Source of the DNA: Methylobacterium sp. Leaf123
GTDB lineage: Bacteria; Pseudomonadota; Alphaproteobacteria; Rhizobiales; Beijerinckiaceae
DNA length: 64,000 bases
Assembly (NCBI RefSeq): GCF_001423405.1
Contig: NZ_LMNS01000039.1
Coordinates: 1-64,000, forward strand
Direction of reading: 5' to 3'
Shown here: in pieces, positions 14,387 to 62,151 of the stretch
Numbering within the stretch: position 1 is the stretch's first letter
How the letters are laid out: each line of letters opens with the position of its first letter
Notes under the pieces: model-generated
Told to the model about the DNA's origin: nothing
Database searches by the model: none
The model's input: the letters and a program-made list of their open reading frames with translations, nothing else
Program-made: the position numbers and the translations under genes

Positions 14387-16606
14387 ATGAGCCGCCGGCA
14401 ACCGAACCCTCCCCCCTCTGCGGGGGAGGGTGCCTGCGGAGCGGGCGGGAGAGGGGCCGGCGCGACCTCTCCGGAAAGCGTGCTCCCCTCACCCGACCCC
14501 CTTCGGGGGCCACCCTCTCCCGCGGAGGGGAGAGGGAAGCGTGTCGGCGCTGTCTTTGCCGCCGTCTTCACCGTTGTGCTTCTGCTGGCGGGCGCCCTCT
14601 GGCGCTACGCCGCCACGCTCCCGCCCCTCGACCTGACCCAGGCCTCGCTCCGCTCCACCGTCATCCTCGACCGGAAGGGCCAGTTGCTGCGCCCCTTCGC
14701 CACCGCCGACGGGCGTTGGCGCCTGCCCGTCACCGCGGACGCGATCGATCCGCGTACCCTCGCCATGCTCAAGGCCTACGAGGACCGCCGCTTCGATCAC
14801 CATCCCGGCATCGATCCGGCGGCGACGGCCCGCGCCGCGTGGCAGTGGCTGGCGCACGGAAAAATCGTGTCGGGCGGCTCGACGCTGTCGATGCAGGTGG
14901 CCCGCCTCGTCGAGCCGCGCACGGAGCGCTCGCTTCTGGCCAAGCTCCGGCAGATGGTCCGCGCGGTCGAACTGGAGCGCAGCCTCGGCAAATCCGGCGT
15001 GCTCGACCTCTATCTTGCGCTCGCCCCCTATGGCGGCCCGGTCGAGGGGATGCGGGCGGCAAGTCTGGCCTATTTCGGCCGCGAGCCGGCCCGGCTGTCA
15101 TTTGCCGAGAGCGCACTCCTCGTCGCCCTGCCGCAGTCACCGGAGGCGCGCCGGCCCGACCGCTTCGCCGCCAACGCGCGGCGCGCCCGCGACCGGGTGC
15201 TCGACATCGCCGCGGAGCGCGGCGTGATGACCGACGCCGAAGCGCAGGCCGCCAAGGCCGAGCCGGTTCCGGCACTTCGAAAGCCGTTCCCGATGCTCGC
15301 GGCCCACGCCGCCGAGCAGGCTCACGCCGCCGACCCGGAAGCGCGGGTGCAGCAGCTGACACTCGACGCGCGCCTTCAGGCGAGCCTGGAAGCGTTGGCG
15401 ACGGAGCGCACGGCGGCCGCCGGCCCGGCGCTCTCCGCCGCGATCCTTGCCATCGACAACCGCACCGGCGCGGTGCTCGCCCATATCGGCAGCGCCGGCT
15501 ATCTCGACGCCGCCCGCGCCGGCGCGGTCGATGCCACCCAGGCGGTGCGCTCGCCGGGCTCTGCGCTCAAGCCCTTCATCTACGCGCTCGCCTTCGAGAA
15601 CGGGCTCGCCCACCCCGAAACCCTCCTCGATGACCGCCCGGCGCGCTTTGCCGCGAACTACGCCCCGGAAAACTTCGACATGGGGTATCGCGGCACGGTG
15701 ACGGCGCGGGTCGCGCTCCAGCAATCGCTGAACCTGCCGGCGGTCGAACTCCTGGACGCGGTCGGCGCCGCCCGCTTCGTCGCGCGGCTGCGCGGGGCCG
15801 GCGCGACGATCCTGCTGCCGCGCGACACGGCGCCGGGCCTGCCCGTGGCGCTCGGCGGGCTCGGCATCACGCTCACCGATCTCGCCCGGCTCTATGCGGG
15901 GCTCGCCCGCGCCGGCACCGTGCCGGTGCTGACCCATCGCCTCGACGGTCCGCCGGCCGCGCCCGAGCCGGAGCGGCGGGTCGCCGACCCGGTCGCGGCT
16001 TGGTACGTCGCCGACACCCTGCGCGGCGCCCCGCCCCCGGAGAACGCCCTGCCCGGCCGGATCAGCTTCAAGACCGGCACCTCCTACGGCTACCGCGACG
16101 CCTGGGCGGTGGGGTTCGATGCCCGCGTGACCATTGCCGTCTGGATCGGCCGCCCGGACGGCGCCTCTGTGCCGGGCCTCGTCGGGCGCAGCCACGCCGC
16201 GCCGATCCTGTTCGACGCCTTCGCCCGGTTCGGCGGTGAGCCGGAGGCCCTGCTCCGCCCCCGCGACGCGCTGGTCGTCTCCACAGCCGCCCTGCCCCCG
16301 CCGCTGCGCCACATCCGCCGCGACGCCCCGAAAACCTTCGCGGCGACCCTCGGCGTGCCCCTCAAGATCGCCTACCCGCCGGACGGGGCACGGGTCGATC
16401 TCGGCCTCACCGAAGGCGCGCAGGCGCGCCTCGCCCTCAAGGCTTTGGGCGGCCAGCCGCCGCTGACCTGGATGGTCGATGGCCTGCCGGTGGCGGAGGC
16501 GATGCGCCGGCAATCGGAATGGAGCCCGGACGGCGCGGGCTTTGCCCGGATTTCGGTGATGGACGCGGCGGGCGCCAGCGACAGCGTGGTGGTGCGGCTG
16601 GAATAG
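14387..16606 (+). CDS. pbpC: Penicillin-binding protein 1C
   Basis: A 739-residue bifunctional peptidoglycan synthase. A transmembrane helix at about 52-72 follows a cytosolic tail. The GT51 glycosyltransferase domain spans about 85-260, with catalytic Glu132 in AYEDRRF and the GGSTLSMQVAR motif. The transpeptidase domain has S392-A-L-K395, S447-L-N449 and K562-T-G-T565. The last 85 residues form a BiPBP_C domain, which is specific to PBP1C. It is coupled to the alpha-2-macroglobulin gene one base upstream. Residues 8-50 are encoded by a palindromic repeat element (14408-14536), so the N-terminal tail is foreign in composition (Pro/Gly/Ala-rich); it precedes the membrane helix and is probably tolerated. 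Confidence 0.93.
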   Translation: MSRRQPNPPPSAGEGACGAGGRGAGATSPESVLPSPDPLRGPPSPAEGRGKRVGAVFAAVFTVVLLLAGALWRYAATLPPLDLTQASLRSTVILDRKGQLLRPFATADGRWRLPVTADAIDPRTLAMLKAYEDRRFDHHPGIDPAATARAAWQWLAHGKIVSGGSTLSMQVARLVEPRTERSLLAKLRQMVRAVELERSLGKSGVLDLYLALAPYGGPVEGMRAASLAYFGREPARLSFAESALLVALPQSPEARRPDRFAANARRARDRVLDIAAERGVMTDAEAQAAKAEPVPALRKPFPMLAAHAAEQAHAADPEARVQQLTLDARLQASLEALATERTAAAGPALSAAILAIDNRTGAVLAHIGSAGYLDAARAGAVDATQAVRSPGSALKPFIYALAFENGLAHPETLLDDRPARFAANYAPENFDMGYRGTVTARVALQQSLNLPAVELLDAVGAARFVARLRGAGATILLPRDTAPGLPVALGGLGITLTDLARLYAGLARAGTVPVLTHRLDGPPAAPEPERRVADPVAAWYVADTLRGAPPPENALPGRISFKTGTSYGYRDAWAVGFDARVTIAVWIGRPDGASVPGLVGRSHAAPILFDAFARFGGEPEALLRPRDALVVSTAALPPPLRHIRRDAPKTFAATLGVPLKIAYPPDGARVDLGLTEGAQARLALKALGGQPPLTWMVDGLPVAEAMRRQSEWSPDGAGFARISVMDAAGASDSVVVRLE
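14408..14536 (+). repeat. Palindromic repeat element, copy 1 (inside pbpC)
   Basis: A 129-bp element made of three back-to-back hairpins: CCTCCCCC/GGGGGAGG at the left end, CCCCC-TTC-GGGGG in the right half, and CCCTCTCC/GGAGAGGG at the right end. The reverse complement of 56951-57080 matches it almost base for base outside a variable centre of about 30 bp. It lies wholly within the pbpC reading frame and adds residues 8-50. Its translation, beginning PPPSAGEGACGAGGRG, is shared with the cobN copy. Confidence 0.9.
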
Positions 16607-53821: not shown

Positions 53822-55101
53822 CTCACGTCGTCCTGAAACACGGGGTCCAGCGCCGGAAGTCCGGCGGCTGCGGCCTTCCTTATCCGGTCCAGCGCCGCCT
53901 CGAAAGCGAGACGCGTTGCCGGCTTGGCAGAGGGGGGCCCGGCGAGCACCACGTCGTAGGCGCCGTCGCGGCCCACCAAGGTGAGATCGGCGGGGCCCGG
54001 ATGGGCGCAGCCCTTGGCGCAACCCGAGACATGAGCGGTGAGCCCGGCCAGCGGGGCCAGCGCCTGCGCCAGCCGCGCGGCGTGGTCGGGCACCGGCGTC
54101 GTGCCGGAGCGGCAGGCCGGCGCGCCGGGGCAGGCGGCGACCCTGCGGCGCGGATCGTCCGGCGTCACGATGAAGCCGGCCTGCGCCAACTCGGCTTGAA
54201 GGGTGGCGGCGCGGCTCGCGGGAACGAGGAGAGCGAGGCCGCGCTCCGCGCTCAACCGCACGTCCGCGGCACCCGCGAGCGCCGCGACCCGCTCCAGCCG
54301 GTCGGCGGTGCAGCGGCCGAACGGCGCCTGGACGAGGAGCGCCCCCCTGTCCGCGGTCAGGGCGGCGAGCCCCGGCGCGGCGGGCGCCGGCGCGGCTGCG
54401 AGCGGCGTCGGCACGAACGGGAAGAAACCGGCCACCGCCGCGATCACGGCCCGTCCGTGGGCATCGAGATCGCGCACCCGCCGTCCGCCGATCTCGGCGA
54501 AAGCGACGAGCGCAAGGCCGATGGCGCTCGCTGCTTGCCGCTCGGGCAGCACGCCGCAGCGCAGGGGGCCGCCGTCAGACGCGAGGCCGAAGGCCACCTG
54601 CTCCGGCCCTTCGGCGAACAGAAAAAAGTCGGCCTCGACCGCGCCGAGGCCGTGGGCGCCGCCGCCATCGATCGCCACTAGCGTCTTGGCCGGCAGGCCC
54701 GGCACCGCGAGCCCCGCTGCCTCCACCGCGCGGGCGAGCGCCGGCACATCGATCCGTTCCGTGGGATCGAGTCCGGCGAGCGGCGCCGTCAGCGTCAGGC
54801 GCTGCGGGCCGCCATCGTCGCGGGTGTCGCCGAGGCCGGCTTCGGCCAGGGCGCAGGCGAGCGGCGCGGCGCTCGCCTCGCTGACACCGCGGATCTGGAG
54901 GTTGCCGCGGGCGGTCACGTCGATATGGCCGTTGCCGTGGGTCCGCGCCCCATCCGCCACCGCACGCAACTGCGCCGACGTCAGGCGCCCGAGTGGGGGG
55001 TGGATGCGGGCGAGCAGCCCGTCGCCGGTCGGCATCGGCCGGGCGAGCGAGGGGCACCAGCCGCGGCGGGCGCCCTCGGGCAGGGTGCGGCGGGCGCTCA
55101 T
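53818..55101 (-). CDS. cobG: Precorrin-3B synthase
   Basis: A 427-residue iron-sulfur monooxygenase related to sulfite reductase; it uses oxygen to make precorrin-3B and marks the aerobic B12 pathway. Two ferredoxin-like half domains (including NGHIDVTARGNLQIRG) precede the cluster-binding cysteines Cys324, Cys330, Cys361 and Cys365 (CPGAPAC and GCAKGCAHPG; C-x5-C-x30-C-x3-C). It overlaps cobN and cobH by four bases each. Confidence 0.93.
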   Translation of the reverse strand: MSARRTLPEGARRGWCPSLARPMPTGDGLLARIHPPLGRLTSAQLRAVADGARTHGNGHIDVTARGNLQIRGVSEASAAPLACALAEAGLGDTRDDGGPQRLTLTAPLAGLDPTERIDVPALARAVEAAGLAVPGLPAKTLVAIDGGGAHGLGAVEADFFLFAEGPEQVAFGLASDGGPLRCGVLPERQAASAIGLALVAFAEIGGRRVRDLDAHGRAVIAAVAGFFPFVPTPLAAAPAPAAPGLAALTADRGALLVQAPFGRCTADRLERVAALAGAADVRLSAERGLALLVPASRAATLQAELAQAGFIVTPDDPRRRVAACPGAPACRSGTTPVPDHAARLAQALAPLAGLTAHVSGCAKGCAHPGPADLTLVGRDGAYDVVLAGPPSAKPATRLAFEAALDRIRKAAAAGLPALDPVFQDDVR

Positions 55102-58100
55102 TCGGCGGCCAGCAGAGCGTCGGCCGGGGCGGCGTTGCGCCGGCTCTGCCATAGGCCGCGGGCGCGCAATTCGTCGAAGCGCTCGAGGATGGCGCGGGTC
55201 GCCTCCGGGTTGGCCGCCTTCAAGGCGTCGAAGGTCTCCGGGTCGGCGATCCAGGCGCCGTAGAGCCGGTCGAGATCGGCGCTCGACACGGCATCGGTCG
55301 CGGCGGCGAGCACGAACACCGCGTCGATGCCCTGCGCGAACTCCTGCGCGCCGCGGTAGCCGTGGCGGAGCTGCGCCGCGATCCAGCGCGGATGGCCGAG
55401 CCGGCCGCGGATCAGCCGGGCGACATCCTCGCGGGCGGTGCGGGTGCGCGGTGCCTCCGGGTTCGAGACGTCGAGGCTGTAGAGCGCGGGTGCCCTCCCC
55501 TCGGACGAGGCCGCGGCGAAGAACCCACCCATGGCGTCGGCGGCGGCATCGCCGTCCATCAGGTCGCGCTCGGCGACATCGAAGGCGTGGACATAAGCAT
55601 CCGCCGCCGTGACGCGGGCGGCGAAATTCGCGTCCGCGCCTTCCGTGTCGCCGTAGGCATGGGTGGTGGCCGCGAGATAGGCGGTGCCGAGGTCGGTCCG
55701 GCCCTCCCACGCGCCGTCGAGGGCGGTTTCGGCTGCGCCCGCACCGTAGCGGCCGGGGGCCGCGCCGTAGATGCGGGCAGCGGATTCGCCCCGGCGCCGG
55801 GCGGCGGCGAGCGGGTTCTCCTCGTCCTCCTCCTCGCGGGCGGCGACGGCGCGGGCCGCGCGGTCGAGCAGCGCCAGGGTCTCGGGAAAGGTGTCGCGGA
55901 ACGCACCGGAGACGCGGCAGGTCACGTCGATGCGCGGCCGGTCGAGAAGCGCCAACGGCAGCACCTCGAAGCCGGTGACGCGGGTCGAGGCGTGGTCCCA
56001 GACCGGGCGCACGCCCATCAGGGCCAGGGCATGCGCCACGTCCTCACCGCCCGTGCGGAGTGTCGGCGAGGCCCACAGATCCATGACGATGCGGGCCGGG
56101 TACTCACCCTCGTCCTGAAGGTAGCGCAACACCACCGCGTCCGCCGCCTTGGCGCCGAGCATGGTCGCGGCGCGGGTCGGCAGGGCGCGGGGGTCGAGCG
56201 TCGTCAGGTTGCGGCCGGTCGGCATCACATCCTGGCGCCCGCGCGAGGGCGAGCCGGCGGGGCCCGGCGCGACGAAGCGGCCGTCCAGCGCCGTGACCAA
56301 AGCGGCGCGCTCGGCCTCCGCGCTCGCCCGCACCGCCTCGGAGGCGTCGGCGGGGGCGCGGCCGAACACGTGCAGGCCATCGCGGAACGGGGTCTCGCCG
56401 AGGTCGCACAGATGCGCGTCGAGCGCTGTCAGCGCGTCCGCCATCGGCGTGTCGCCATCGACGCCCGCGCCTTCGAGCAGGCCGGCAGAGGCCGCCTCGT
56501 CGAGGATCGCCGTGGCGATCAGCCCGGCCCGGCGCGGATCGAGCACGCTCGCGGCGGAATACTCTTCCACCAGTTCGCGGAGCGCCGCGGCCTCGGGGGT
56601 GAGCCCGGCGGCGTCGATCGTGGGGGTGAGGTGCCCGAGGGCGATCCCACCGAGCCGGCGTTTCAGCGGCGCGGCCTCGCCGGGGTCATCGACGATGAAG
56701 GGATAGACCACCGGCAGCGCCCCGACGGCCAGCGCCGGCCAGCATTTGCCTGAGAGCGCCACCGCCTTGCCCGGCAGCCACTCGGTGGTGCCGTGGGTGC
56801 CGAGATGGATCAGCGCGTCGAAGGCGCTCCGAACGCCCAGGTAGAAGGCGAGGTAGGCATGGGTCGGCGGCTCGTCGGGGTCGTGGTAGCCGGCCTTGCG
56901 GTCGGCGGCGCGGCCGCGGTCGGGCTGAAGGAAGAGGGTGAGACTCTCATCCCTCTCCCCTCCGCGGGAGAGGGTGGCCCCCGAATGGGGGCGGGTGAGG
57001 GGAGCGCCTTTTCTAGAAAGACCTGAGCTGGCCCCTCTCCCGCCTGCTCCGCAGGCACCCTCCCCCGCAGAGGGGGGAGGATTTTGCGCCGCGCAGACCA
57101 TCCGGAACCGAAATGCCCCGTCGCAGCAGAGCGGGTCGGCCTTCGGCGCGCCCCAGCGCTCGGTCAGCTCTGTGCGGCGCTCTTCCGGCAGCTCCTCGAA
57201 CCACGCCGCGTAATCGGCCAGCGATACCGAAAAGCTCGGCTCGCCCTCCGTCAGCGCCTCCATCAGCGCGCCTGCCTCCGGCAGGTCGCCCGCGGCAAAT
57301 CCCGCTGCGGCGAGGTCGGCGGCGATGGCGCGGGCGCTTTCCGGCGTGTCGAGACCGACCGCGTAGCCCGCGCGACCGCCGCGGGCGGGGTAATCGGAGA
57401 GCACCATTGCCAGCCGGCGCTGGTCGCGCGGCGTGCGACGAAGGCGGATCCAGGCAGCAGCGCGGTCGGCGAGTGCGGCGATGCCGGCGGGATCGGGCAC
57501 CGCGCGGCGCTCCGAAAAGCCCTCGACCGCCGCGGCCTCCTCCTTGAACGAGATCGGGAAGCCCGAGAGCCGGCCGTCGAATTCCGGCAGCGCCACCTGC
57601 ATCGCGAGGTCGGACGCGTTCATGCCGCGGCCCGACGCGCTCCAGGCCGCGTGCGGGGCGCCGATCGTGTAGGCCTGGAGCACGGGGCAATCGGCGGCGT
57701 CGAGCACGAAACCGGCATCGTCGCGGGCCGAGAAGGCAGTGGCCGCGAGCACGATGTCGGGGCGGCGCTGGCCAAGCGCCGCGCGTAAGGTCGCGACCGC
57801 CTCCGGGTCCTTCAGGCTCGACACCGCGAGCGTGACGCTGCCGATGCCGCGTTCCGTCAGCGCGGCTGCGAGCTGCACGGCCGGCCCCGTCTCGCCGGAC
57901 AGCACCGCAGAGCGGTAGACCAGCAGCAGCGCCAGCGGCCCCGGCCCGGCGGCCTGCATCGCGGTCTCGAGGGAGAGCGGTCCGCAGCCGGGGCACCACG
58001 CAAAGCCGCGCGGCAAAGCCTTCGGCGGCGCGGCCTCGAAGGCGGCGCCGGCCTCCGCCGCGAGGCTGCGCAGCAGGTTCTTCAGGTTCTCCGGCCCGCC

Positions 58101-58529
58101 CGCGCGAAAATAGGCGTCGAGGCGGATGCAGGTCTCGGGCGGCAGGGTCGAGAAGGCGTCGAGGCGCGAATCCGGCCGGTCGTCGCCGGGCAAAACCGCG
58201 AGTTTGACACCCTGCGCCCGTGCCGCCGCCGCGGCGCGCTCGATGCCGTAGCGCCAATAATCGAGCCCGCCGAGGCAGCGGATCACGCAGACCTTGGCGC
58301 GGGCGATCACCGCATCGACATAGAGATCGACCGACATCGGGTGGCGCAGTTGCGCCAGCTTGGCCAGCCGCAGCGAGGGCAGGCCGGGCTCGTCCGCATG
58401 GGCGCGCGCCACCGCCGCGAGGTCCGTGTCGGTGAACGACAGGAACACGATGTCGCCGGGGCTCTGGCCGAGATCGACCGCCGCCTCGCCCTCGTCGAGG
58501 GAGACCGTATCGAGGCGGATCAGGTGCAT
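55098..58529 (-). CDS. cobN: Cobaltochelatase subunit CobN, carrying a repeat insertion
   Basis: A 1143-residue subunit of the ATP-dependent aerobic cobalt chelatase that inserts cobalt into hydrogenobyrinate a,c-diamide. MHLIRLDTVSLDEGEAAVDL gives the usual start, with CLGGLDYWRYG nearby; the LTLFLQPDRG...YHDPDEPPTHAYLAFY block and LIHLGTHGTTEWLPGK are core motifs, and near the end RLIRGRLGHPRWIAAQLRHG. Residues 484-526 are encoded by a palindromic repeat (56951-57080) inserted in frame just before LTLFLQPDRG; the flanking protein is intact, so function is probably kept. The protein is slightly shorter than most CobN despite the insert. Confidence 0.92.
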   Translation of the reverse strand: MHLIRLDTVSLDEGEAAVDLGQSPGDIVFLSFTDTDLAAVARAHADEPGLPSLRLAKLAQLRHPMSVDLYVDAVIARAKVCVIRCLGGLDYWRYGIERAAAAARAQGVKLAVLPGDDRPDSRLDAFSTLPPETCIRLDAYFRAGGPENLKNLLRSLAAEAGAAFEAAPPKALPRGFAWCPGCGPLSLETAMQAAGPGPLALLLVYRSAVLSGETGPAVQLAAALTERGIGSVTLAVSSLKDPEAVATLRAALGQRRPDIVLAATAFSARDDAGFVLDAADCPVLQAYTIGAPHAAWSASGRGMNASDLAMQVALPEFDGRLSGFPISFKEEAAAVEGFSERRAVPDPAGIAALADRAAAWIRLRRTPRDQRRLAMVLSDYPARGGRAGYAVGLDTPESARAIAADLAAAGFAAGDLPEAGALMEALTEGEPSFSVSLADYAAWFEELPEERRTELTERWGAPKADPLCCDGAFRFRMVCAAQNPPPSAGEGACGAGGRGASSGLSRKGAPLTRPHSGATLSRGGERDESLTLFLQPDRGRAADRKAGYHDPDEPPTHAYLAFYLGVRSAFDALIHLGTHGTTEWLPGKAVALSGKCWPALAVGALPVVYPFIVDDPGEAAPLKRRLGGIALGHLTPTIDAAGLTPEAAALRELVEEYSAASVLDPRRAGLIATAILDEAASAGLLEGAGVDGDTPMADALTALDAHLCDLGETPFRDGLHVFGRAPADASEAVRASAEAERAALVTALDGRFVAPGPAGSPSRGRQDVMPTGRNLTTLDPRALPTRAATMLGAKAADAVVLRYLQDEGEYPARIVMDLWASPTLRTGGEDVAHALALMGVRPVWDHASTRVTGFEVLPLALLDRPRIDVTCRVSGAFRDTFPETLALLDRAARAVAAREEEDEENPLAAARRRGESAARIYGAAPGRYGAGAAETALDGAWEGRTDLGTAYLAATTHAYGDTEGADANFAARVTAADAYVHAFDVAERDLMDGDAAADAMGGFFAAASSEGRAPALYSLDVSNPEAPRTRTAREDVARLIRGRLGHPRWIAAQLRHGYRGAQEFAQGIDAVFVLAAATDAVSSADLDRLYGAWIADPETFDALKAANPEATRAILERFDELRARGLWQSRRNAAPADALLAAE
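56951..57080 (-). repeat. Palindromic repeat element, copy 2 (inside cobN)
   Basis: A 130-bp element whose reverse complement matches 14408-14536 nearly base for base at both ends; the central 30 bp differ. It is read sense in cobN. The first half translates in the same frame as in pbpC (PPPSAGEGACGAGGRGA), the second half in another frame (LTRPHSGATLSRGGERD) because of the one-base length difference. Both copies leave the host frame open. Confidence 0.9.
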
Positions 58530-58542
58530 GGCGCGGGCGCCC

Positions 58543-59439
58543 TCACGGCTCCAACGGGACGCGCGCCGGATCGGCCCGCTTGCGCCGGATGCGCCAGACC
58601 AGCCGGAGGAGCAAGGCGGCAAAAAGGGCAATCGGCAGCCAGGGCAGACTCGCGACGGTGAAGCGGAGGGCGGAGGCCGCGCTCTCGCCGAGGATCGGGC
58701 CGCTGCGGGCCCAGACCTCCTGCACCGGGGCGAAGGCGCCGGCCCGCGCCCGGCTGGTGCGGAAGTCCACCGTGACGACCTCGGTGTCCACGCGCTCATC
58801 GAGCCCGCGGCGCGTCCCTTCCGATTCCTCGATCTGGCTCTGGACCTGGGCCAACTCGCCCGCGATCTTGATGAGATCCTCGGCCCGGTTGTCCGGCTTC
58901 TCGGCAAGCGTGGTCAGGCGGGTGCGGTAATCGTTGAGCTGGGCGAGGCGCCGGCCGGTATCGGCGATGGAGGCGGTGAGATCCTCGGCGCGGGTCGCCT
59001 GCTCGACCAGTACGACGTCGCCCGCCGCCTCGCCCGGCAGCGGGCCGGTGACGAAGGCGACGTAGGCGGCGACCGCGGCATGCGGCAGCCGCACCTCGAT
59101 CTGCGCCTGCGGCGGGCTCGCGCCGTTGCCGTCGCGGACCGACGAATTCAGCAGCGTGCAGGTCGCGGCCTCGTTGAGGCAGCGGTCGCGGGCGGCGGCG
59201 AAATGCGGCGCCACCCGGTCCGGCCCGAGGCCGACGGTGAGGTCGTGGCGATAGGCGAGCTTGGCCGCGCTCCCCTCACGCGCGGCGGAGACGAAGGGCG
59301 CGGGCGCAGGGGCCTGGGCCATCCGCATCTCCCCATCCGCCTCGCGCCGGCTGTCGGCACAGCCGGCGAGAAGGGCGAGGAGGGGAGCCGCGACCCAAAG
59401 CCCGCGCGGCAGCCGGCCTGCGGCCTCGCCCCGGCTCAT
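58543..59439 (-). CDS. DUF4349 lipoprotein within the cobalamin operon
   Basis: A 298-residue membrane-linked protein. A lipobox (LLAGC, Cys27) ends the signal peptide. The middle contains IEVRLPHAAVAAYVAFVTGP and a coiled coil (IKIAGELAQVQSQIEESEGT), which mark DUF4349. One transmembrane helix (about 257-282) ends in an RRKR-type basic tail. Its ATG overlaps the cobW stop and it ends 13 bp before cobN, so it is fully embedded in the operon. DUF4349 proteins have no known role in B12 synthesis. Confidence 0.85.
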   Translation of the reverse strand: MSRGEAAGRLPRGLWVAAPLLALLAGCADSRREADGEMRMAQAPAPAPFVSAAREGSAAKLAYRHDLTVGLGPDRVAPHFAAARDRCLNEAATCTLLNSSVRDGNGASPPQAQIEVRLPHAAVAAYVAFVTGPLPGEAAGDVVLVEQATRAEDLTASIADTGRRLAQLNDYRTRLTTLAEKPDNRAEDLIKIAGELAQVQSQIEESEGTRRGLDERVDTEVVTVDFRTSRARAGAFAPVQEVWARSGPILGESAASALRFTVASLPWLPIALFAALLLRLVWRIRRKRADPARVPLEP

Positions 59440-61843: not shown

Positions 61844-61894
61844 CGGGTCACGGGCTCCGGCCGCCCCACCGGCGGCGTTCGAGAACAAAACTTC

Positions 61895-62055
61895 GCCGGA
61901 CGGCAGGTCTCCTGGCTCGCGGCTGGTATCGTGCCTGCCGCCTTCCCGGATCACCCGGTGGCTCATGGCAGGAACTCGCCGCTTACAGTTGCGGGGGCAG
62001 CCGCGGAATCGAGGTTTTTGGAGAAACCTCTCACCGCATTCCCTTTTCACCCCGT
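61895..62055 (-). promoter_or_regulatory. Adenosylcobalamin riboswitch
   Basis: Read on the minus strand, the leader contains GGGAATGCGGTGAGAGG, then GGCTGCCCCCGCAACTGTAA, then GAGCCACCGGGTGATCCGGG AAGGC-type core, and the B12 box GCCAGGAGACCTGCC (complement of about 61902-61917). These are the conserved parts of the cobalamin aptamer in the right order. It precedes cbtB by about 50 bp and controls the ten-gene operon down to cobJ. Ends are approximate. Confidence 0.96.
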
Positions 62056-62151
62056 TGCCGGGGCACCGTCACGAGCCGCTTGTAACGCGGAGCGGCGAGC
62101 CTTGCAAAGCGCCATTGCGTGAACGGAGGCACCCGGTGCAAACGAACCGGC

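Follow-up and report, generated by a model that had tools for sequence, protein, structure and literature searches.

The stretch of DNA analyzed here, 64,000 nucleotides in length (the window), includes pbpC and cobN, and each of these genes was found to hold a copy of a palindromic element of the same family (family A), at the positions given in a preliminary description of this DNA (Table 1). The element is built as a REP-like palindrome, with two unlike arms of about 50 nt in inverted orientation separated by a spacer of about 28 nt. The copies are 129 nt (pbpC) and 130 nt (cobN) in length and are 95% identical over 57 nt at one end and 86% identical over 79 nt at the other, in keeping with the near-identical ends noted earlier; with the pbpC copy as query, the cobN copy was matched at an E-value of 1.9e-42, far beyond chance. 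The hairpin structure ascribed to the element was recovered as well, with the element strand predicted to fold end to end (RNA, −109.4 kcal/mol, z −8.3; DNA, z −4.3) and inner hairpins also present within the arms. Among 19 aligned copies, changes on both sides were detected in at least one copy for 7 of the 43 predicted pairs, and the compensating changes were mostly in the small hairpins within the arms and in the spacer. The frame is unbroken in pbpC and in cobN, as had been described, and because the lengths differ by one base the second halves of the two copies are read in different frames.

Table 1. Coordinates of the features in and around the two genes of the window that carry family A.
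Feature	Position	Strand	Basis
pbpC, penicillin-binding protein 1C (TIGR02073)	14387..16606	+	
Family A palindromic element, in frame as PPPSAGEG...PSPAEGRG, N-terminus of PbpC	14408..14536	+	
Arm A of the pbpC element (CCCTCCCC...GAGAGGGG), 50 nt	14407..14456	+	sequence; 19-copy alignment
Spacer of the pbpC element, 28 nt	14457..14484	+	sequence; 19-copy alignment
Arm B of the pbpC element, inverted orientation (CCCCTCACCC...GAGAGGG), 52 nt	14485..14536	+	sequence; 19-copy alignment
cobN, cobaltochelatase subunit CobN, from the Met at the start of the family model	55098..58529	-	
Family A palindromic element within cobN, low-confidence loop of the modelled protein	56951..57080	-	
Extension of the cobN open reading frame	58530..58907	-	
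Cobalamin riboswitch (RF00174)	61885..62085	-	

The pbpC insert is located after the start codon and before a membrane helix, consistent with the placement ahead of the helix proposed earlier. The in-frame ATG, GTG, and TTG codons of the window's pbpC are the ATG at 14387, a GTG within the element, and a GTG within the membrane helix, the last being the only start codon after the element. That the pbpC copy might lie upstream of the true start, an objection raised in the preliminary description, was checked in five relatives with family A in pbpC (L112, L120, L121, L125, and L131), and in all five the sole in-frame ATG/GTG/TTG precedes the insert. The CobN insert is flanked by FRFRMV and LFLQPDRGR. 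An AlphaFold2 model of CobN (mean pLDDT 77.6) placed most of the insert (residues 483-519 and 521-525) at a pLDDT below 50, between strands at 477-479 and 530-534 which are joined by a tight turn in relatives. When aligned with the solved CobN structure 9uk9, the alignment was found to break at chain residue 487 and to resume at 506, around this same place (hereafter the slot). Furthermore, a 40-row CobN alignment displayed at least 15 extra residues at the slot in 16 rows, compared with at most three rows at any other position. Inserts at other CobN loops were also detected in L057, L085, L087, L102, L104, and L108 (Methylobacterium, Chelatococcus, Microvirga, and Bosea); judging by their peptides, those of Chelatococcus, Microvirga, Bosea, and L057 look partly repeat-derived. 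The cobN open reading frame begins with a TTG located 126 codons upstream of the Met that starts the PRK12321 model, and this extension may be non-coding. A cobalamin riboswitch (118 bits) lies a few kb from cobN and was the sole Rfam match at the gathering threshold in the window and two loci.

The window's genome was searched with the element, and at least 47 matches were identified at the DNA level (best 40 of 80 candidates scored). A covariance model identified at least 53 matches (best 150 of 5968 candidates scored), which reduce to 29 places when collapsed by hand, since palindromes match on both strands. Two of these places (C23:418859 and C10:39280) belong to family B, leaving 27 family A places for the analysis, of which one is partial. 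Four of the 27 copies were scored as in-gene by a simple codon score for coding potential, by which genes can be missed: (i) three mid-gene copies, in cobN, in a cisplatin damage response ATP-dependent DNA ligase (TIGR04120; L002, C38:82450), and in a ligase-associated DNA damage response DEXH helicase (TIGR04121; L021, C8:2858), the latter two also in frame; and (ii) the N-terminal copy in pbpC. Seven copies, including that of pbpC, are open into a downstream gene start, and the other six were not scored as in-gene. For the other families, mid-gene copies were detected at 1 of 10 places (family B) and 0 of 25 places (family C) among the matches listed. In all, 40 stretches were examined; excluded from the counts were L254 and L255 (no match of 70 nt), L256 and L257 (repeats of other places), and L024, L026, and L027 (opposite-strand copies of counted loci). 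As the coding density of M. extorquens is about 84% according to PMC2680597, in-gene copies (4 of 27) are strongly depleted, in line with what REPs would lead one to expect. The observation made in the preliminary description is confirmed, and its interpretation is partly supported: family A is a dispersed palindromic repeat (27 places) read in frame in unrelated genes (four), and in that respect resembles the Rickettsia palindromic elements (RPEs) to which it had been likened, but insertion into genes is not its habit, as 23 of the 27 copies were not flagged in-gene. A class-wide search of 289 genomes, with the best 3 candidates scored in each, found a match in at least 36 genomes; full or nearly full-length family A matches came from the two genomes of this genus, and in the other 34 genomes the matches were partial, covering about 24-66 nt and lying mostly in the arm B half.

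Several further observations were made on the host genes. Both partners of the same damage response, the ligase and the DEXH helicase, carry the element in one genome. Another copy (L014) reads in frame into the start of a UdgX/TIGR03915 repair gene. In the window's genome, a short family B remnant was found in frame in a glycosyltransferase-like gene (L252, C34:40815) whose family match is weak and below cutoff. Three helicase loci (L181, L182, and L190) have one or two in-frame stops outside the slot region, for which damage or misassembly is possible. The structure model of the ligase had a mean pLDDT of 38.5, and no reading rests on it.

The slots were examined in related genomes. Both anchors of the cobN loop were present in 79 of 80 loci (the best 80 of 141; L096 lacked an anchor), all 79 were in frame, and the loop from FRFR to LFLQPDRGR varied in size, being a tight turn at its shortest and exceeding 200 nt at its longest. 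The preliminary description had expected the insert to be missing in relatives and had named orthologues that all carry the same residues as counterevidence; the cobN loci follow the former. The nearest relative (L032; 96% over 420 residues) is without the element and has a 45-nt linker, while a tight turn was found in all 20 measured loci of 21 in the outgroup (Microvirga, Bosea, Phreatobacter, Chelatococcus, and other Rhizobiales) and in an early-branching group of 11 Methylobacterium. Slots of at least 30 nt numbered 42, the window included, and 26 of these could be assigned to six families (A, 8; F, 5; B, 4; C, 4; E, 4; D, 1), with 11 of the 26 being the reference sequences themselves; many of the other 16 are short. 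The other three genes likewise hold different families in one slot. When the best 30 of 59 genomes per search were examined, the ligase slots were assigned to A (13), B (4), F (3), G (2), and E (1), with none assigned in 7; the helicase slots to A (14), E (2), F (2), and D (1), with none in 11; and the pbpC slots to A (10), B (4), E (2), and F (1), with none in 13. Two of the families, E and F, are relatives of each other (77% over 116 nt), and some others are connected by short matches, so not every family change need mean that unrelated DNA was inserted. Occupancy in the examined set overstates that of the genus, because best-scoring genomes favor query-like inserts: among the 29 genomes outside the ligase set, 24 matched in two halves with a gap of at most 27 nt, three had 114-228 nt, and two were unjudged. 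When folded, 17 of the 32 cobN inserts of at least 60 nt had a z below −4. Some shortened inserts (L034, L041, and L053) folded no better than shuffles. Remnants were also found, including part of an A element in the cobN of L053 and a shortened B in the ligase of L151. In the congener G003, for which loci were obtained at 23 of about 32 places, in-gene family A copies were detected in pbpC, the ligase, the helicase, urea carboxylase, and BchB; the copies in the latter two (L264 and L272) are also in frame and represent further slots.

The families found in the slots were next compared with the five genomes of the window, L068, L038, L110, and L088. Matches on both strands numbered at least 80 for family D in the genome of L068, at least 80 for C in that of L038, at least 76 for B in that of L110, and at least 72 for E in that of L088. 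Elsewhere, family D had none among the matches listed in the genomes of the window, L038, and L088, and at least 32 weak partial matches in that of L110; family E had none among the matches listed in the genomes of the window and L068, at least 20 in that of L038, and at least 1 in that of L110. Family C was found at least 79 times in the window's genome, at least 80 in that of L110, at least 31 in that of L068, and at least once in that of L088; family B at least 35 times in the window's genome, at least 47 in that of L038, and at least 8 in that of L068, with none among the matches listed for L088. By these counts, B, C, D, and E are host-specific families. On quick gene trees with many weak forks, the fewest family changes were 18 for cobN (81 rows, with L096 scored as an empty slot) and 10, 10, and 6 for pbpC, the ligase, and the helicase (30 rows each), with rows of no assigned family left out.

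Taken together, we regard as probable that insertion was repeated and that in-frame survivors were selected in tolerant loops refilled by resident palindrome families. Family A would be a non-autonomous REP-like palindrome that spread through Methylobacterium and Methylorubrum genomes, with its insertions within genes mostly purged by selection. The survivors would be those with a total length that is a multiple of three and an open frame, and that landed in one of a few tolerant loops or linkers, the slots. These slots may then lose their insert, have it shortened in frame, and be filled anew by the palindromic families resident in each genome, which would account for the different repeats at the same place across species. 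The translated product would be a Pro/Gly/Ser/Arg-rich, probably disordered loop with a presumably neutral effect on an otherwise conserved protein.

An alternative is that the slots are preferred targets, in which the insertion machinery recognizes a short AT-rich stretch and insertion is directed rather than filtered. Consistent with this, the A+T content of the 4 bases before and after 21 copies of the window's genome was found to be 76-95% and 62-67%, respectively, compared with 28% for the window, and to fall at the fifth base. However, the A-rich 4 nt at the border may be part of the family A element itself; no direct repeats of 3-9 nt, which would point to the target-site duplication of a MITE, were found to flank the 21 copies, a search made at occupied sites; and different families in common slots would require shared machinery. 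We therefore consider directed insertion unlikely. Mobilization by RAYT was also considered and rejected, as the Y1 transposase (PF01797) had no match in the window's genome (G000) or in 12 congeners; the same search gave a positive signal for 5 of the 14 control genomes and for 3 of the 21 genomes searched, these three belonging to other genera. Since neither a transposase nor a target duplication was found, mobility is inferred from dispersion only.

The inserts might instead be kept for a function, with a stable mRNA hairpin that slows the ribosome or a loop that tunes the enzyme, and a function has been speculated for intragenic REPs in repair genes in the main text of PMC3733652. Recurrence in the same four proteins would fit such a role, as would the ligase and the ligase-associated helicase of the DNA damage response being two of the four hosts, and folding strength per base is about the same for the four in-gene copies and the others. 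A single reading phase also dominates. The PPPSAGEG phase is used by 34 of the 35 slot A copies with a recognizable arm motif (of 45 slot A copies, 10 are without the motif), the exception being the helicase copy of G003. This bias spans the four genes and is displayed by the urea carboxylase and BchB copies of G003 as well. It also counts against the reading of filtered in-frame survivors, as filtering for open frames does not explain it, the other frames being about as open. The 24 copies of the window's genome have on average 4.375 of 6 frames open, compared with 4.305 for dinucleotide shuffles; thus, the freedom from stop codons in several frames that had been claimed for the element holds, but as a product of base composition rather than as a special feature. 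A disorder advantage of the used phase was rejected, as the TOP-IDP means of the six frames all fell at 0.24-0.35 (21 copies), and shared descent accounts for part of the bias. Counter to a function, in many species the slot of these genes is short or empty, the shortened inserts of L034, L041, and L053 show no folding beyond that of shuffles, and the peptides of different families have no visible common motif. Retention for function is accordingly judged quite unlikely.

A further possibility is that each slot received one ancient insert that was inherited and diverged into the present sequences. Some neighbors clearly share an inherited insert: the G003 ligase copy is 96.1% identical to its nearest copy in its own genome and 97.7% to that in the orthologous slot of another species (L156), and the cobN inserts of L038 and L061 are 94% identical; the relatedness of families E and F is also in line with descent. 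Opposed to this, the window's four in-gene copies are closer to another copy of their own genome (90.6-93.2%) than to the best orthologous-slot copy examined (74-86%). The helicase copy of G003 looks like an independent insertion on such identities (97.6% own genome versus 90.7% orthologue), while its pbpC copy is 94.4% identical to its own genome and 93.5% to an orthologue. Moreover, each of families B, C, D, and E is dispersed in the genome where it occupies the cobN slot, neither D nor E has any among the matches listed in the window's genome, and the cobN turn is tight in both the 11 early-branching Methylobacterium and the 20 measured outgroup loci. From these comparisons, a single ancestral insert per slot appears very improbable and is strongly disfavored. 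Least credible is that the inserts are absent from the proteins, with a downstream start for pbpC and with skipping, at the RNA or ribosome level, of the inserts in cobN, the ligase, and the helicase: N-terminal REPs are often annotation errors according to the main text of PMC3733652, but the mid-gene inserts or linkers have lengths that are multiples of three in 102 of 102 cases (42 of 42 in cobN at 30 nt or more, 30 of 30 in the ligase, and 30 of 30 in the helicase, including eight short or empty ligase or helicase slots) with no stop codon in the slot translations examined, which skipping would not require, and the five pbpC relatives are without an in-frame start after the insert.

Repeated insertion into tolerant slots provides dozens of natural replicates within one genus, with the same loop, different inserts, empty relatives, and remnants. 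Such a system allows one to measure how often repeat DNA turns into protein, which loops accept it, and at what cost or benefit to the enzyme. It also urges caution, as repeat DNA can underlie annotated low-complexity linkers such as PPPSAGEG. The idea that new protein sequence may arise from palindromic repeats within genes has been put forward before, and its best-known examples are from intracellular bacteria. More tentatively, and with considerable doubt on our part, the slots may be genus-wide landing-pad loops that hold a fast-turning, host-specific spacer of selfish origin, possibly favored as a co-translational pause or a modulator of repair enzymes, with the family A phase preferred.

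When compared with known systems, family A shares features with several. REPINs and RAYT-mobilized REPs are inverted REP pairs that are dispersed in genomes and thought to be non-autonomous. Family A is like REPINs in its dispersion and in the inverted pair of REP-like units with a spacer by which REPINs and BIMEs are recognized; it is unlike RAYT-mobilized REPs in the lack of PF01797 matches in the genome and congeners searched. RPEs have a size of roughly 100-150 bp. They are described in the main text of PMC3733652 as palindromes read in frame inside unrelated proteins, and the likeness of family A to them is one of behavior, namely a palindrome in frame in unrelated protein genes; unlike RPEs, most family A copies were not flagged in-gene and the host is the GC-rich Methylobacterium group. 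The main text of Di Nocera et al. 2013 (PMC3733652) describes the intragenic REPs of the GTAG and CGTC superfamilies as short palindromic units, often inverted heterodimers, that are mostly intergenic with some in open reading frames, and in this family A is alike; it also stresses repair genes as hosts and reports different REPs at about the same site in recB of two Xanthomonas species. GTAG was found within 8 nt of either dimer end in 0 of 27 family A copies, and CGTC within 8 nt of either end in 0 of 27, with an internal CGTC in 15 of 27. Family A differs from these superfamilies both in the lack of end tags in all 27 copies and in its arms of about 50 nt, which are much longer than the end tag, 8-9 bp stem, and 4-5 nt loop of a CGTC unit; by eye, family D of L068 resembles a CGTC dimer. 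The words "Methylo" and "M. extorquens" are absent from the main text of PMC3733652. Likewise, a literature search judged by titles and abstract openings, with few subscription papers covered, found neither an earlier report in Methylobacterium nor genus-wide slot refilling. Compared with the intragenic REPs in the main text of PMC3733652, one slot here holds different families across a genus, and this in four proteins. Overall, intragenic REPs and RPEs are known, and what is new is the genus-wide refilling of fixed protein slots.
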